A stretch of DNA of 64,000 nt, taken from positions 62,001-126,000 of IMG/VR virus record IMGVR_UViG_3300044640_001869; one strand, 5' to 3'. A program made the translations under genes and the position numbers. Shown here piece after piece: positions 2,877 to 55,677 of this stretch. The first letter of the stretch is position 1. Each line of letters starts with the position of its first letter. This DNA comes from a virus. The notes under the pieces were generated by a model that was not told where the DNA came from, did not search any database, and worked only from the letters and a program-made list of their open reading frames with translations.

Positions 2877-4097
2877 TGCTTTATAATTAAGTATTTTTTC
2901 TATTACGATTTTCACCTCATCAGGATTTAACATATGGGTTTTTTTATGAGTGTCGAACCATTCTCTAACAACATCCTCTAAAGGTAATTTCCTTAATTTT
3001 GATAAACGTTTAAACCCATAATATTGTGCCGGTATTTCATGATTTCTTGAGTAATATTCTAAATTACTACCTTCAACATCCTCATAGTTTAATTCGCCCC
3101 TATAATTTTGTTTAAGGTGAACCATTTCGTGAGTCAATACCTCGTTAATCTCACCAATTAAATCATATAATTGTTGATTAATAGTTTTTGGATTATATTC
3201 GACAACCATTTCTATAACATCTTCCTCGTGTGAGTAGGCACCATTAACACCAAACCCACCAATAATGTCATTAAATCGTAAAGTTAATTCAACACTAAAT
3301 AATATCTTTTTATTTGTTAACTTATATTGAAGTTCTCCATTAATATCTTCAGGTAAATAAAATCCACCTTCTTCATTTTGTTTAATTATACTTACAATGT
3401 CTTTAACAACTGTTCTAATGGCTAATCTATCAATCATACCTTCATTAATTGTGTGTACATCGTGTTGATTTGTTTTATATGAACCATCAGGATTTTTTTC
3501 CCAAACCCCAACAACACGTTTCACATTGTTTTTAACTGTTTTTTGTTTTTTCTTATGGTTAAATTTAGTATCAACAAACTCACTAAATGGTGATAGTGTT
3601 TTATTTTTCCATTTTATTAACCCCAATTCTAATGGTCCGGTATATTCACCTGACGAAATACTTGTACTTGATTCATCAATATTTAACTTAATTTCTTCAT
3701 AATCCCCCTCAAGTTCTGACAAAGATACTAAAACTTCTTTAGTAATTGTCTCTTTAATATTAAGTGCTCTCAACATTTTTCTGGCCATACCACCTAAACT
3801 TCTTTCAATTCCTAATTGACGTAATGGTTTTTTTACATCATAAATTTCTTTATCTTCAGTTTTATATTCAGGATGTTCTTTTATAAGAAATGATATTATT
3901 CTTTTTGCGGTATCATTAAGATTAAAAATCTTGAAATTCAATAAATAAAAGTCTTTCCATTCACCAATACTAATCAATGGTTTTATCTCACCTGTTAACT
4001 CAAGAATATAGTCAAATGAATATATTTCTGACTCATAATGATAAGTTTTTTTTGACAGTAAATTATTTATTTTTTTTATGTAAGTTTCGTTGCTCAT
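2874..4097 (-). CDS. HExxH metallopeptidase-like protein
   Basis: The 407 residues hold a gluzincin-type zinc site in the C-terminal third: LTHEMVHLKQ (H323, E324, H327), then RNHEIPAQ about 25 residues on as the likely third-ligand helix. The N-terminal 200 residues are helical with no recognised domain; VHTINEGMIDRLAIR (about 210-225) is the kind of internal N-E-G linker seen in tagged proteins. A TATTTAT box 20 nt upstream groups it with the putative late genes. A virion or assembly protease is possible; substrate unknown. Confidence 0.7.
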   Translation of the reverse strand: MSNETYIKKINNLLSKKTYHYESEIYSFDYILELTGEIKPLISIGEWKDFYLLNFKIFNLNDTAKRIISFLIKEHPEYKTEDKEIYDVKKPLRQLGIERSLGGMARKMLRALNIKETITKEVLVSLSELEGDYEEIKLNIDESSTSISSGEYTGPLELGLIKWKNKTLSPFSEFVDTKFNHKKKQKTVKNNVKRVVGVWEKNPDGSYKTNQHDVHTINEGMIDRLAIRTVVKDIVSIIKQNEEGGFYLPEDINGELQYKLTNKKILFSVELTLRFNDIIGGFGVNGAYSHEEDVIEMVVEYNPKTINQQLYDLIGEINEVLTHEMVHLKQNYRGELNYEDVEGSNLEYYSRNHEIPAQYYGFKRLSKLRKLPLEDVVREWFDTHKKTHMLNPDEVKIVIEKILNYKA

Positions 4098-9912: not shown

Positions 9913-11772
9913 CTATTTCACTTCGTCAAATTCCACATCAGAAAAATCACTATCATTCACCTCATCAGTTACATTTGACTCATCATACAAGTTTTGAGAT
10001 ACTGATTGGAACTTAGTATTGACTGATTCAATTTTCGACTCCAAAACGTCTAATTCTCGTTTCTCAACAGATTCTTTTAAACTTGAAACCAATTCAGTTA
10101 ATTCTGTTTTATCAGTTTCTGAGATTTTATCTTCCAAATCTTTAATTGATTTTTCAGATTGGAACACAACACTGTCAGCTTTATTAATTAATTCAACCTC
10201 CTCACGTAATTTGTTATCGTTTTCAGCATTTGCTTCAGCTTCAGATTTCATTCTTTCAATTTCTTCTTTAGACAATCCTGAAGACGCTTCAATTTTAATT
10301 GATTGAACTTTGTTTGTTCCTTTATCCAACGCAGATACATTAATGATACCGTTAGCGTCAATATCAAAAGTTACTTCGATTTGCGGAACACCTCTTTGTG
10401 ATGGTGGAATATCAGTCAATTGGAATTTACCAATAGTTTTGTTGTCCTTAGCCATCGCTCTTTCCCCTTGTAATACGTGGATATCAACACTTGGTTGGTT
10501 ATCAACTGCCGTAGAGAATACTTGTGATTTTTTAGTTGGGATTGTTGTGTTAGATTCAATTAATTTAGTGAATACACCTCCCATAGTTTCGATACCTAAT
10601 GAAAGTGGGGTAACATCTAATAATAACACGTCTTTTACATCACCAGCTAATACACCACCTTGGATTGCCGCACCTAACGCAACTACCTCATCAGGGTTAA
10701 CACCTTTTGAAGGTTCTTTACCAAAGAATTTTTTAACGGCCTCCTGAATTGCTGGAATTCTTGTTGTTCCACCTACTAAAATAACTTCATCAATATCGGT
10801 TACTTTAATACCCGCACTTTTCAACGCACTTTCACACGGTTTAATAGTTCTGTCAACTAATGGTTGAACTAATTGTTCGAATTTAGATTTACTTAAAGAA
10901 GTTACTAAGTGTTTTGGAACACCATCAACCGGCATTAAGTAAGGTAAGTTAATTTCTGTTGATGAGGTTGATGATAACTCAATTTTCGCTTTCTCAGCAG
11001 CCTCTTTTAATCTTTGTAACGCCATTGGGTCTTTACTAACATCAATACCATTTTCATCTTTGAAGATTCCTACTAAGTAATCAATAATTGTTTGGTCGAA
11101 GTCATCACCACCTAAGTGAGTGTCCCCATCTGTTGACATTACTTCAAATACTCCGTCACCTAATTCAAGGATTGAAACATCATGCGTACCCCCACCGCAA
11201 TCAAATACAACAACAACAGCGTCTTTTGATTTCTTATCTAAACCGTAAGCCAATGCCGCAGCGGTTGGTTCGTTGATAATACGTCTAACAGTTAAACCTG
11301 CGATTTCACCAGCTTCTTTTGTTGCTTGTCTTTGTGCGTCATTAAAGTAAGCAGGAACAGTAATAACCGCTTCAGTTACAGTTGACCCCAAATAATCTTC
11401 CGCAGTTTTTTTCATCTTTTGTAAGATAGTTGCTGAAATTTCTTGTGGTGAAAATTCTTTATTATCAATTTTTACTCTTGGGGAATTGTTTTTCCCTTTA
11501 ATTACAGAATATGGAACTTTTGTAGTTTCATTCACACATTCATCAAATGATGAACCCATAAAACGTTTAACAGAATAAACCGTATTAGTTGGGTTAGTAA
11601 CTGATTGTCTTTTAGCAGGGTCACCAACTTTTCTTTCTTCATTAACAAATCCAACTACTGATGGTGTTGTTCTTTTTCCCTCACTGTTAGGGATTACAAC
11701 AGGTTCATTCCCTTCCATTACGGCAACACACGAATTCGTAGTTCCTAAGTCAATTCCAATAATTTTACTCAT
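9913..11772 (-). CDS. dnaK: Hsp70 chaperone DnaK
   Basis: 619 residues, close to the usual 610-640. Phosphate-1 motif [14 protein letters not shown] at the N-terminus, [10 protein letters not shown] and the connect region near 170-180, phosphate-2 [19 protein letters not shown] near 190-205, adenosine motif [17 protein letters not shown] near 330-345, then substrate-binding and lid domains ending in an acidic tail with EV instead of [13 protein letters not shown] replaces the usual FDLGGGTFD. Cytoplasmic ATP-dependent folding chaperone; no DnaJ or GrpE is encoded here, so it must use host partners. A TGACA-N3-TGTCA palindrome lies 67 nt upstream. Confidence 0.97.
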
Positions 11773-48780: not shown

Positions 48781-49347
48781 TTATACTAAGAACTTCTTAG
48801 GGTCATACCAAAAACAACCTACACAAGTTCCTTCATAATTTATATTACCTTGTACAACTGAAACTGAACAACCTCTTTCTTTTGCATCATATCTAATGTT
48901 AGTCTTAGAACATTTTAGACAGTCAGACCTTTTTTGTTTATTAAGACTTTCTAATAGTGGTTGGAAATCATCTATAGTTTGTTTATCTAAATTAAGTACA
49001 TCATCAGGATATCTCCCATCTTTATGGTCTACTTCTATTTTGTGTCCGTTGTTTAGTTTAAGATTAGTAATAACACAGGGTTTGTTTCTAACTTCATCCC
49101 ATATATCTTTTCTGATTCTTCTTGTTCCGTTGTTATCTTTATACCCATTGAATCTCCATTGGGTTTCGTTATCTACAATACGTTTTTCGAATATATATTT
49201 TTTAAGACCGACGTTTCTATACCAATGGTTTCCATTCTTTGGGAATAGTGTAATATATTTCCCCACGCATTCGGATTTGTTCACCCATCTTGATACACCA
49301 TTTTGGTCGGGATTAAACAGTTCTATAACTAATTCGGTATTATTCAT
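48781..49347 (-). CDS. HNH-type type II restriction endonuclease
   Basis: 188 residues. N-terminal half probably DNA-binding (RRIRKDIWDEVRNKPCVITN); HNH/beta-beta-alpha core KIEVDHKDGRYPDD (H108) with DFQPLLESLNKQKRSDCLKC as the following helix; zinc Cys pairs C143/C146 and C175/C178 (EGTCVGCFWYDP). This Cys4 HNH layout occurs in several type II restriction enzymes. It overlaps the methyltransferase gene by 8 nt, giving an R-M pair with the methylase translated first. Confidence 0.82.
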   Translation of the reverse strand: MNNTELVIELFNPDQNGVSRWVNKSECVGKYITLFPKNGNHWYRNVGLKKYIFEKRIVDNETQWRFNGYKDNNGTRRIRKDIWDEVRNKPCVITNLKLNNGHKIEVDHKDGRYPDDVLNLDKQTIDDFQPLLESLNKQKRSDCLKCSKTNIRYDAKERGCSVSVVQGNINYEGTCVGCFWYDPKKFLV

Positions 49348-50119
49348 ATTTGTTTATTCTATCAATTGAGTATTCCACTTGTTCTTTACTAATTTCACTA
49401 CCTATATAGTTTCTGTTATTCATCTTACAGGATAAACCTGTTGTCCCCGTTCCCATAAATGGGTCATATATAATATCTTGTTCTTTTGTATATATGTTTA
49501 TTAGTTTGGTACAGAGTTCTGATGAGTATGTTGCTTTATTAAGGTTAGTTGATTCGTCATTATTTTTTGCGGTGATAAAGTTATCAATTACTTCATAGTA
49601 GTTCTGACCTTTCGGGGATGTTTTGGTAATTTGTTTATTACAGTTAAACGTTTTCACCTCATCTTTCCTGACGATAACAAAAATAAACTCTACGATTCTG
49701 TTTAATCTATTGTATGATGCTGGGTGAGGAATACTATTACTTTTCTTCCATACGATAGTATCTACCACCGTGAACGGAGTATTGTTAATGATATGTGCTA
49801 TCATTGTGTATGGTAGTGCGGGATTTTCTATTGAGTATGAGAAGTTATATAGTATAGTTCCGTTATTGATTAGGACCTTATCTATATTATTGAATATCAT
49901 TGAAGTCCACGTCAGGTATTCTTCTTCGGTTTTCCAATCAACGTATGTATCGTATCTATTTTGTTTATCTGCATATCCCCCTTTTCTTTTGGTCATATTG
50001 TATGGTGGCGACGTTATCACGCAATGAATGGATTTTGGTTCCATTCTATTCATTGTTATTATGCAGTCCTCGTTATATATTGTATTAATCATATCAGTAA
50101 TATAGTAATTATTTTCCAT
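49340..50119 (-). CDS. DNA adenine/cytosine-N4 methyltransferase (beta class)
   Basis: 259 residues. Catalytic motif IV TSPPY (36-40) comes before the AdoMet motif DPFMGTGTT (219-227), the order of beta-class amino-methyltransferases (MboII-like). Between them lie SNSIPHPASYNRLNRIVEFI and a target-recognition segment. It should protect the phage genome from the adjacent endonuclease. Recognition site not deducible. Confidence 0.92.
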   Translation of the reverse strand: MENNYYITDMINTIYNEDCIITMNRMEPKSIHCVITSPPYNMTKRKGGYADKQNRYDTYVDWKTEEEYLTWTSMIFNNIDKVLINNGTILYNFSYSIENPALPYTMIAHIINNTPFTVVDTIVWKKSNSIPHPASYNRLNRIVEFIFVIVRKDEVKTFNCNKQITKTSPKGQNYYEVIDNFITAKNNDESTNLNKATYSSELCTKLINIYTKEQDIIYDPFMGTGTTGLSCKMNNRNYIGSEISKEQVEYSIDRINKYE

Positions 50120-52200: not shown

Positions 52201-53292
52201 AGATTTACCCTCGTTTAATTTAATGTTTCTTCCACCTCATCTTCGCAGTCATCTAATAGGGACCACGTTGAGTCTACCTTACAATTTAGGGTATCTTCTA
52301 CCCTCAAGAAGCGTGTGTTTCTTCCACAAAAAGTTGAATCTACCTTACAATTTAGGGTATCTTCTACCCTTAAAGGAAGCGATGATTGAATATATGATGT
52401 TGAGAGTACCTTACAATTTAGGGTCTCTTCCACCTGTGTTCTATGTTTTCCGTTAAACCAATTTACCTCATCAACCTTACAATTGAGGACCTCTTCCACC
52501 AAAATTTCATCGTTTTGAAAAACCCCAAGTGTTGAATCTACCTTAAAATTTAGTGTATCTTCTACCACACCACGATTTTCATTTTCATCAAAATAAATTG
52601 AATCAACCTTACAATTTAGGGTCTCTTCCACAAGTAATTCATTCCCATCTTTGTACCATTGGGCTCTGTTTACTTTACAATTTAGGGTATCTTCCACATC
52701 CCTCGGAATAAATTTATTAATACTTACTGTTTTTACTACATTAAAATTTAGGGTCTCTTCCACCTCATCTTCGGTTAATTCTCTACCCGCCCATGTTGAG
52801 ACTACCTTACAATTTAGGGTATCTTCCACCCCCTGGGCAGAATCTCCGTAACCCATTCCCGTTGTGTCTACCTTACAATTTAGGGTATCTTCCACATCCC
52901 TCGGAATAAATTTATTAATACTTACTGTTTTTACTACATTAAAATTTAGGGTGTCTTCTACCCCAGAACGCTCCAAATCGAGAAGATACTGCGTTGAGAG
53001 TACCTTACAATTTAGGGTGTCTTGCACCCAGGGGTTAATTGTTCCAACCACTCCTTGAGTTGAGTCTACCTTACAATTTAGGGTGTCATCCACCGGAATT
53101 GGTAAATATGAATCTCTGGAAACTGTTGAGTCTACCTTACAATTTAGGGTCTCTTCCACCTCAAAACGAGGGGCATTCCCATATCTAAAAGTTGAGTCTA
53201 CCTTACAATTTAGGGTGTCTTGCACCGCGGTATTTTCATCTAAGTTGTGTAATTCAGTTCTACCTACCTTAGCATTTAGTTTATTTTCCACC
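52201..53292 (-). repeat. In-frame 36+30 nt repeat array (CRISPR-like geometry)
   Basis: Sixteen full 36-nt repeats begin at 52267 and every 66 nt to 53257; a degenerate partial one covers 52217-52236. Core ACCTTACAATTTAGGGT on the plus strand. Sixteen 30-nt spacers (52237+66n) are unrelated except for one that, with its repeat, occurs twice (52699-52764 and 52897-52962). There is no length variation and all units stay open in one frame. The right-end repeat (53257-53292) is diverged and belongs to the gene body. No cas genes here. Confidence 0.9.
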
Positions 53293-53537
53293 CATTCAGA
53301 GATTAATTCCTGAAACACCTCACTAGTCATTGCTAGCAAACTTGTAATCTTTTTGAAGTAATCATATCTCCACCACAGGTAATTGGTTTCAATTTTATAT
53401 TCAAGGAACCAATATTTTCTTTCTCGGTTAACAAACCAAATCCCTTTTGTGTTTGGGTTATATATAATCTCACATTGATTGAGTTCTTTCTCAATACGTT
53501 TATAAAACCCCTCTTTATATTTTTCGGTATAATTCAT
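52215..53537 (-). CDS. Protein ending in sixteen 22-residue repeats
   Basis: 440 residues. Residues 1-80 match the second half of the GGWENF-family proteins: IYNPNTKGIWFVNRERKYW, VFQELISEWVENKLNAKVGR. From about 82 the final motif is repeated as V-E-[DE]-T-L-N-C-K-V-D-S-T plus ten freely varying residues (for example FRYGNAPRFE, VSRDSYLPIP, QYLLDLERSG). The last copy ends VEETLN at the stop. Start 53537 overlaps the upstream gene by ATGA. Repeats may form a solenoid or shield of variable loops; function unknown. Confidence 0.85.
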   Translation of the reverse strand: MNYTEKYKEGFYKRIEKELNQCEIIYNPNTKGIWFVNRERKYWFLEYKIETNYLWWRYDYFKKITSLLAMTSEVFQELISEWVENKLNAKVGRTELHNLDENTAVQDTLNCKVDSTFRYGNAPRFEVEETLNCKVDSTVSRDSYLPIPVDDTLNCKVDSTQGVVGTINPWVQDTLNCKVLSTQYLLDLERSGVEDTLNFNVVKTVSINKFIPRDVEDTLNCKVDTTGMGYGDSAQGVEDTLNCKVVSTWAGRELTEDEVEETLNFNVVKTVSINKFIPRDVEDTLNCKVNRAQWYKDGNELLVEETLNCKVDSIYFDENENRGVVEDTLNFKVDSTLGVFQNDEILVEEVLNCKVDEVNWFNGKHRTQVEETLNCKVLSTSYIQSSLPLRVEDTLNCKVDSTFCGRNTRFLRVEDTLNCKVDSTWSLLDDCEDEVEETLN

Positions 53538-54082: not shown

Positions 54083-55381
54083 TTATTTCTTTCTTGTTGG
54101 TATAAGACATAATTCATCAAATTCATCTTTTTGGATTTTCCAATCAAATTTATTATCTAAATAAAATGATTTATAACTAAACAAACCAAAAACTCTTTTA
54201 CCAATAAGTTGTCGCTCATTTAATTTATATCCGTCACCTAATAAATTATCAAAATTAATACTACCATCATCTTGTTTGAGGTATTTTGACAATATTGATT
54301 TTTGTTTATCATTTGAAGCAAAAAACATTTCATTAACTTCTTCTTTTGTTAAATCAATATAATTTTCTAATGGATTTCTATATCCAAAACTCTTCAATTT
54401 ACCTTGCCATTCGTCACAAGCGACCGAATATATTTCTTTTAATCCTTCTCTTGATAATTTTTGTGTTTCCATATTTTTCTCTTCTTTAATAATTTCAGCC
54501 CATTTTCCATTTGCATATATAAATCCAAAACCTCCTTCAATACAACTACTTCCATATTTGGGGAACATATTAATTTCTTTAATGAATTTATAAGGAACCC
54601 CATTTGAATTTAATGGAATGTATTTTGTCCCAATCGGGTAATGTTTTTTGGTGTGATATATTCTACCTTCAAGGGTTGTTAAATCAAATTCTTCTCCTTT
54701 AATAATTTCAGCCCATTTTCCATTTGCGTATATATAACCTTCCCCACCTTCTAACATCCCTTCTAACATCCCTTCAGGATGTAATCTGATATCATAATTA
54801 ATGGACCTAATATTATGTACCCCCCAACTTTTACCTGTACTATATAATGGAATATATTTTGTTCCAATTGGATAATGTTGTCTTGCGTAAGCCAATCTTC
54901 CTTCAATGGTTGTTAAATCAAATTCTTTATCCATCTTAACTGTTAATTGAGATTCTTTTGAAAATTGTTCCCCACCATTTATATGTTGTTGTGATTCCAT
55001 ATAATCAATATGATTAATCATATCATCAATATGGATTTCCGTTCCGAATGGTATTTTAATGCCCCACCCTTCATCATTAATAACACCATAATAAGGTCTA
55101 TCAGAATTGAATATCCGACCACAAAAATCGGTATTATAATTTTTATTCAACCATTGAATATATTTCCCCCATTTAATTCCATCATCGCAGCTTTTAACAC
55201 AGAATGATTCAGGTAGTTCGGTGATGACAACATCATCATTAAATAAACAATGGTTACCATTCTTTCCTGTAAAACACCTTTTAGGTAATCTAATGTCATA
55301 ATAAACATCAATAATCTGATTATTTAAATATCTGTTATACCAAGTTGATTTATTATTTGAACTTAATATTTTAACTTTCAT
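54083..55381 (-). CDS. Protein with two YPIGTKY repeat modules
   Basis: 432 residues from 55381; ATGA overlap with the upstream stop decides the start. Residues 1-125 contain VVITELPESFCVKSCDDGIK and a W-x-K-Y-I-Q-W segment. Two modules (about 150-230 and 230-300) share EFDLTT-[IL]-EGR, HYPIGTKYIPL and GYIYANGKWAEIIK. A third part (310-432) has LENYIDLTKEEVNEMFFASN. Widespread modular type in phages of this group; function unknown. Confidence 0.72.
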   Translation of the reverse strand: MKVKILSSNNKSTWYNRYLNNQIIDVYYDIRLPKRCFTGKNGNHCLFNDDVVITELPESFCVKSCDDGIKWGKYIQWLNKNYNTDFCGRIFNSDRPYYGVINDEGWGIKIPFGTEIHIDDMINHIDYMESQQHINGGEQFSKESQLTVKMDKEFDLTTIEGRLAYARQHYPIGTKYIPLYSTGKSWGVHNIRSINYDIRLHPEGMLEGMLEGGEGYIYANGKWAEIIKGEEFDLTTLEGRIYHTKKHYPIGTKYIPLNSNGVPYKFIKEINMFPKYGSSCIEGGFGFIYANGKWAEIIKEEKNMETQKLSREGLKEIYSVACDEWQGKLKSFGYRNPLENYIDLTKEEVNEMFFASNDKQKSILSKYLKQDDGSINFDNLLGDGYKLNERQLIGKRVFGLFSYKSFYLDNKFDWKIQKDEFDELCLIPTRKK

Positions 55382-55677
55382 ATTATATTTTTTGTTAGGA
55401 TTAAACAACCATCTTCATCTAATGCGGGTATAATATCACAGGAACATTCTTTTTCAGGTTCAGTACAACCATCAGGTAACCCACAAGACATAACAACCCA
55501 AACATCCCATCCATCCAAATCATTTTTAGGAACATCACGTTCAATATCTTCGCAGTTATGTAGTGATAGTTTATATTTAACTAAATCAAAATTTAATAAC
55601 GGTCTTGTTGTCCCTAGTATAACTGTGTTAACAAACACGTAATAACCTTCTTCTTCTTTATATAAAATCCCCTTCAT
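55378..55677 (-). CDS. GCLIL-end family protein, short
   Basis: 99 residues. Start 55677 by ATGA overlap with 55674. GYYVFVNTVILGTTRPLLNF, GWDVWVVMSCGLPDGCTEPE and the family end PALDEDGCLILTKN. Paralog of 55674-56183, sharing W-D-V-x-[IV]-V-M and the P-A-L-D-E-x-G-C-L-I-L end. Confidence 0.7.
   Translation of the reverse strand: MKGILYKEEEGYYVFVNTVILGTTRPLLNFDLVKYKLSLHNCEDIERDVPKNDLDGWDVWVVMSCGLPDGCTEPEKECSCDIIPALDEDGCLILTKNII

Follow-up and report, generated by a model that had tools for sequence, protein, structure and literature searches.

A phage gene ending in a repeat-spacer array of CRISPR-like geometry that is read as protein

Introduction

Several described systems resemble the locus analysed here. 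Virus-borne mini-CRISPR arrays, as in SPV1, SPV2 and others, are intergenic and hold one or two spacers that target sister viruses; arrays of the SPV1/SPV2 type have leader and repeat in common with the host CRISPR, and the host adaptation module is assumed to fill them (PMC6858448). RNA anti-CRISPRs consist of single, non-coding repeat units that imitate the CRISPR repeats of the host (PMC10651486). False-CRISPRs, which occur in tandem-repeat genes, are defined by missing spacer diversity (PMC5294841). Diversity-generating retroelements, by adenine mutagenesis, carry out targeted diversification of phage proteins. In CRISPR arrays themselves, a 36-nt repeat with a 30-nt spacer is the geometry of type II.

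The locus lies in a 64-kb stretch (the window, that is, the whole of the DNA analysed) of a 126,190-base virus contig, and belongs to a family of phage arrays that shares features with each of these systems and differs from each. With CRISPR arrays the family shares near-identical repeats, unique spacers of near-constant length (varying by 1 nt either way) and type II 36/30 geometry and, at the level of the family but not in the window's array, leader-end gain, decaying distal repeats and colinear shared spacers; in contrast to CRISPR arrays, the arrays sit in phages without cas1 or cas2 in the contigs checked, have a non-palindromic repeat, are read as protein and have spacers without known source. 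With viral mini-CRISPR arrays they share a cas-less build and spacer turnover among close relatives (PMC6858448), but they are translated, reach 16 units and have yielded neither a target nor a matching host repeat. With RNA anti-CRISPRs and other solitary repeat units they share phage-borne repeats without cas genes, but they are multi-spacer, coding and without known host match (PMC10651486). Like false-CRISPRs they place a CRISPR-shaped repeat inside an open reading frame without cas genes (PMC5294841), but their spacers are diverse and turn over in a polarised manner. Like diversity-generating retroelements they diversify a phage protein at a defined place, but by replacement of whole inserts. 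A preliminary description, made from the window alone, had noted that no described system is known to have this build, and the open-access literature searched gave no counterpart.

Results

The array gene in the window

The array forms the 3' part of an open reading frame that encodes an 82-residue N-terminal domain (N-domain), sixteen 22-residue units of 12 constant and 10 variable residues, and a partial seventeenth unit (Table 1). At the DNA level, sixteen 36-nt repeats follow one another with an exact 66-nt period, the spacers (15 internal and one last) are all 30 nt long, and a partial 17th repeat closes the gene. These results confirm the repeat-spacer geometry given in the preliminary description, including its statement that every unit is open, together with three further features that it had noted: a degenerate terminal repeat, which is the partial VEETLN-stop; one duplicated repeat and spacer, which is VE[DE]TLNFNVVKT-VSINKFIPRD (R6/S6 and R9/S9); and a first repeat that coincides with the C-terminal motif of the N-domain in diverged form, WVENKLNAKVGRT. 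The proposed origin of the repeat by amplification of the N-domain end is also supported. One correction is required: the DNA repeat starts at the G preceding the GTG codon (53292 for R1), and the repeat/spacer borders sit 1 nt off the codon frame. Nucleotide identity in the window is 0.31 among spacers and 0.80 among repeats, and an Rfam search of the window returned no RNA family.

Table 1. Positions of the array gene and its parts in the window.
Feature	Position	Strand	Remarks
Array gene, 440-aa ORF	52215..53537	minus	open throughout; relatives found
N-terminal domain, residues 1-82, up to Trp codon TGG	53293..53537	minus	AlphaFold2 pLDDT about 88
N-domain/repeat 1 junction	53284..53301	minus	synonymous-site conservation of the codons preceding the repeat (relatives)
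Repeat 1, diverged (VENKLNAKVGRT)	53257..53292	minus	8-15 mismatches vs other repeats
Spacer 1 (ELHNLDENTA)	53227..53256	minus	common to relative L001
Repeats 2-16 and spacers 2-15	52267..53226	minus	66-nt period; repeats, 36 nt each, at 53191-66k .. 53226-66k (k=0..14)
Duplicated unit, copy 1: R6 + spacer VSINKFIPRD	52897..52962	minus	
Duplicated unit, copy 2: R9 + spacer VSINKFIPRD	52699..52764	minus	
Spacer 11 (YFDENENRGV)	52567..52596	minus	common to L001
Last spacer (WSLLDDCEDE)	52237..52266	minus	common to L001; WVLADDCEDE in L061
Partial terminal repeat, VEETLN + stop	52215..52236	minus	same ending in relatives

The N-domain is confidently predicted to adopt an alpha-beta4-alpha-alpha fold, the last helix of which continues into repeat 1; the repeat motif comprises the predicted end of this helix and a short strand (AlphaFold2). 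For the repeat part the prediction, from a shallow alignment, has a pLDDT of about 30 and gives no confident structure for added units. No family in Pfam, PHROG or the PDB covers the N-domain, matches of its fold to the PDB are below significance, and its matches in BFVD are a few unnamed proteins from uncultured phages with the same domain. Whole-protein Pfam matches (for example, EF_HAND_1_PLCG) were rejected as repeat artefacts without any single matching stretch.

Family and distribution

Protein and DNA searches of IMG/VR recovered 92 distinct open reading frames with the N-domain, of which about 65 are array-type genes with 2 to 16 repeats. The array-type genes come from many metagenomes and sit on some 45 contigs of uncultivated phages, which reach 326 kb in length. 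The build of 12 constant and 10 variable residues is common to the family, and some phage genomes carry several such genes. The first DNA scan demanded exact 66-nt spacing, and may under-sample off-period arrays; scans without this demand recovered mostly the same arrays. A separate clade (L123, L124, L134, L129 and L121) has the same 12+10 architecture with the motif VEEVLKRGVSST, and the build is therefore not limited to the window's nearest phages. Two further candidates, L155 and L156, were rejected as unrelated coding chance matches. No homologue was found among 50,697 phage records (cultured phages) or in GTDB genomes. The nearest terminases with a named host are largely those of Flavobacterium phages, at 27% identity, and Bacteroidota hosts are plausible for the array phages. 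No neighbour gene that could be a candidate integrase is common to all clades.

Coding constraint and a DNA-level ruler

Random 30-mers with the base composition of the spacers lack an in-frame stop in about 51% of cases. All 15 internal spacers of the window are open, for which the chance is about 4e-5, and the family holds about 200 distinct in-frame spacers where chance predicts about half to be open. Adjacent repeats of the main family lie 66 nt apart in 253 of 270 cases, and all spacings except one (in L058) are multiples of three. Because spacings are multiples of three, yet half of random spacers would hold stops, we conclude that coding is selected in the main family. The coding selection that the preliminary description had considered likely is thus borne out, also by a pN/pS of 0.35 for shared spacers (33 changes; 0.17 for the N-domain). 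A reading-frame mixture model, itself weak, gives most weight to the sense frame, beyond stop avoidance alone.

The same element occurs in a paralogous family (MKYLITESQ...WVENTLQMKV), where the repeats lie at distances of 65, 66 or 67 nt and later ones fall behind stops or lose the frame. The three identical repeats of L157 are spaced by 67 and 65 nt, a stop lying between them, and L102 has repeat spacings of 67, 66 and 66. In L058 one spacer has an in-frame stop and one is 29 nt long, and in L045 a stop at the spacer-repeat junction is followed by further repeats. As judged from these spacings, spacer length is shown to be 30 nt, and 29 or 31 nt where frame is not kept. Since spacers of 29-31 nt or with stops exist in the paralogous family and in two broken arrays, unit gain is a DNA process with a ruler of about 30 nt.

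Several minor observations concern the same genes. The MKYLITESQ genes are clustered: L102 (minus strand, 10196-10395 in reverse-complement coordinates), L104 (1938-2003, reverse complement) and L157 (4390-4581). The L-[KRN]-I-P terminus of many members comes from a second repeat that follows a 29-nt spacer and is read in a different frame. At gene ends in L011, L063 and L098, a TAACTAATATTTATATATAATGAA-like sequence recurs: it terminates one paralogue and is often followed by the next ATG. It could serve these genes as a shared promoter or site of recombination. The L058 locus (2930-3330, reverse-complement coordinates) is a distant relative with the repeat GTTGGACTTGACCCTAAATCGTAAGGTAGACACACC, three copies of which are identical; its N-domain gene changes frame at a run of G, so that either the gene or the assembly is broken.

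Conservation of the repeat as nucleic acid

Of the distinct spacers, 177 of 190 end in G, the base ahead of the GTG codon. That G matches the closing codon of the N-domain, TGG (Trp); the single array with TTT at this position is without the G. N-domains with 20-50% amino-acid identity share codons at a frequency of 0.47-0.53, against 0.47-0.48 expected from usage, whereas the repeats of the same pairs share codons at 0.68-0.76, against 0.42-0.47 expected. Site-by-site synonymous analysis of 21 representatives below 65% identity locates the conservation in the repeat at the first three codons, AAT, AAG, GTA and the xCA codon; codons -3 and -2 upstream of the repeat are also conserved (0.72 vs 0.27 and 0.71 vs 0.43 expected), and the third base of the last repeat codon is free to vary. 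This pattern places the borders of the repeat at G/.../ACAAC, one base off frame. We conclude from these codon comparisons that conservation of the 36-nt repeat acts at the nucleic-acid level. Repeated phage-to-phage transfer of repeats could also raise codon sharing, a point against the reading proposed below.

Polarity and spacer turnover

Within arrays of the family, spacers are about 30% identical at the nucleotide level, equal to chance, and repeats about 80%. Best-matching spacers agree at either 12-17 of 29 positions (chance) or 24-28, with intermediate values absent, and 211 distinct spacers fall into 192 clusters. Matches are thus either near-identical or unrelated, and spacers are therefore replaced whole. 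Where N-domains are 99.6% identical (one base in 240), the arrays have only 3/5 and 3/7, or 4/8 and 4/7, of their spacers in common. Spacer turnover between close relatives, a comparison that the preliminary description had proposed, is accordingly real; the finding that it had named as fatal to its claim of diversity, the same fixed loops without turnover, was not made among the relatives compared.

Turnover is ordered. The order of shared spacers is concordant in 316 comparisons and discordant in 0; the sharing of spacers climbs with rank from 0.31 at the first to 0.72 at the last, the N-domain-proximal spacers being the most different between arrays; and the divergence of repeats from repeat 1 correlates with rank (0.68 in 20 dissimilar arrays, a value reached in 0 of 2000 permutations). 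Of 51 arrays, 15 have R1 and R2 exactly equal, and none ends in two identical repeats. We conclude from these alignments that arrays change by gain and loss of whole spacers, with the youngest units adjoining the N-domain. Some unshared spacers are interior, and internal gain or simple loss therefore also occurs. The interpretation in the preliminary description, a protein end motif amplified with variable 30-nt inserts to give a variable-loop protein or an array also used as RNA guides, is thus supported in part; it had missed both the nucleic-acid conservation of the repeat and the polarised, DNA-level growth.

The array in the window does not have the polarity of the family: R1 is its most diverged repeat and S1 is conserved, and a comparison with L001 shows the first spacer in common and the middle different. 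Because the first repeat is mutated and the first spacer fixed, the leader end of this array has probably ceased to be active. Its seemingly frozen state could be due to differential loss or to internal gain, and the account of ectopic acquisition in PMC7999890 provides a known case of internal spacer gain.

According to one alternative, the gene encodes an ordinary tandem-repeat protein, the units of which are swapped by homologous recombination in the repeats and drawn from a large standing pool of loops, with no special integration. The duplication of the VSINKFIPRD unit, the units common to paralogous arrays (FEVDAAQKRK/FEINAAQKRT and THMYNNGEIW/THMYTNGEIQ), the terminal partial repeats and a 22-residue period that fits a structural repeat are all as this alternative would have it. 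We nevertheless consider it unlikely, in view of the polarity and 316:0 colinearity, the 192 clusters among 211 distinct spacers, the synonymous conservation of repeats across saturated divergence and the identical repeats in out-of-frame arrays; moreover, the family does not show the loops fixed between orthologues and diverging by substitution that characterise a solenoid.

Searches for spacer sources, repeat matches and enzymes

GC3 is 0.34 in spacers of ranks 1-2, 0.29 in later spacers, 0.25 in the N-domain and 0.23 in neighbour genes. Spacer GC3 thus lies above that of the N-domain and neighbours and is highest in the newest ranks, which points to foreign DNA. A search for spacer templates in the array's own 126-kb contig and about 1 Mb of relatives returned little beyond reversed controls; the two strongest matches (52 and 44 bits) came from array ends left unmasked, and the one after them, at 36 bits, was marginal. 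Within three large array phages, spacers match the arrays only, as do two spacers searched against IMG/VR with wobble-tolerant patterns. Alignment of spacers to phage and plasmid records, which the preliminary description had proposed, yielded no match: about 88 spacers gave no protospacer in 50,697 phage records, and 24 spacers gave none in plasmid records.

The repeat has no palindrome and folds into no conserved hairpin (mean z of -0.2 for one strand and -0.8 for the other), has no Rfam match at gathering and no match to a CRISPR family at E<=5, and is absent from the plasmid and phage records. A CRISPR repeat would be expected in a cellular locus as well; an exact search of 84,980 genomes of bacteria and archaea for the consensus pattern found no match. 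Cas1 was detected in 0 of 24 array contigs, many of them fragments, and Cas2 in 0 of 16, many possibly incomplete, with controls detected in both searches. In contrast to diversity-generating retroelements, the arrays have no template repeat in their own contigs and no reverse transcriptase (RVT_1) in 24 array contigs, many of them fragments; a tyrosine recombinase (integrase), the mark of an integron cassette array, is present in only 1 of 16.

These searches bear on a second alternative: that the repeat mimics a host CRISPR repeat and diverts host Cas1-Cas2 into high-copy phage DNA, with translation only tolerated. Cas-less viral arrays that are probably filled by host adaptation have precedent (PMC6858448). 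The type II-like 36/30 geometry and the ruler of 30 +/- 1 nt, the GTTG..CAAC/CACC-type repeat ends in several variants and the presence of several array genes per genome would fit such a sink. We judge it rather improbable: coding is clearly maintained in the main family, the repeat pattern is absent from the genomes, plasmids and phages searched, and the repeat is without palindrome or hairpin.

The same searches leave it very doubtful that the array serves as RNA guides, a use that the preliminary description had raised. In this reading the transcript would be cut to spacer RNAs directed at the host or at rival phages, and its coding would be secondary. Array anatomy, nucleic-acid conservation of the repeat and polarity speak for guides, but there is no conserved RNA fold or hairpin, no cas1 or cas2 in the contigs checked, no protospacer in phage records, plasmids, own genomes or (for two spacers) IMG/VR, and a strong coding constraint. 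Finally, a RiPP-like multi-core peptide precursor, in which repeats would be recognition sites and decapeptides the released products, has the merit of a constant, recognition-like segment joined to a variable segment of fixed length but is scarcely credible, as the decapeptides are without a conserved modifiable residue, no neighbour gene is conserved across clades, and the DNA-level features would need a separate cause.

Discussion

We propose, with a confidence that we put at about even, that the locus is a polarised repeat-spacer array built into a phage gene at its 3' end, filled by an integrase acting in trans and selected as a peptide array. According to this proposal, a trans-acting integrase with a ruler of about 30 nt would insert a captured DNA fragment and duplicate the N-domain-proximal repeat on either side of it, in the manner of Cas1-Cas2 at a CRISPR leader. 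Because the phages checked encode no Cas1-Cas2-type enzyme, the leading candidate would be the host's own CRISPR adaptation complex; to our knowledge, Cas1-Cas2 is the sole enzyme with such a signature. In the window's family, only captures in frame and free of stops would persist, and the outcome would be variable decapeptides set in a constant frame and translated as one array: that is, a diversity generator for a phage protein. The peptides might bind or decoy host or rival factors, which is a guess. More tentatively, and as a possibility rather than an expectation, the gene end in lytic phages might be an acceptor into which an adaptation-type integrase, probably the Cas1-Cas2 of the host, writes pieces of foreign DNA of about 30 nt one after another, yielding a heritable, ordered and translated decapeptide library under selection at the protein level.

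In the tests made, neither cas1/cas2, nor palindromy, nor a cellular copy of the repeat places the build among CRISPR arrays, although its growth resembles theirs, and the open-access literature searched gave no counterpart; a matching host CRISPR repeat would make it a variant of virus-borne CRISPR arrays. If the proposal is correct, a repeat-spacer memory would be read as protein instead of as RNA guides, and targeted diversification of a phage protein would have a route other than diversity-generating retroelements. Ordered growth, with spacers as a record of captured DNA, makes the reading testable. CRISPR detectors will report such coding loci as CRISPRs.

Two other open reading frames near the array, both on the minus strand, have features of their own. 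The neighbouring one, at 54083-55408, contains a duplicated segment (FDLTT[IL]EGR...HYPIGTKYIPL ... GFIYANGKWAEIIK) as well as a tandem repeat of 12 nt at 54747-54775. The other, at 49340-50119, has an SPPYN motif and is, by appearance, DNA amino-methyltransferase-like.
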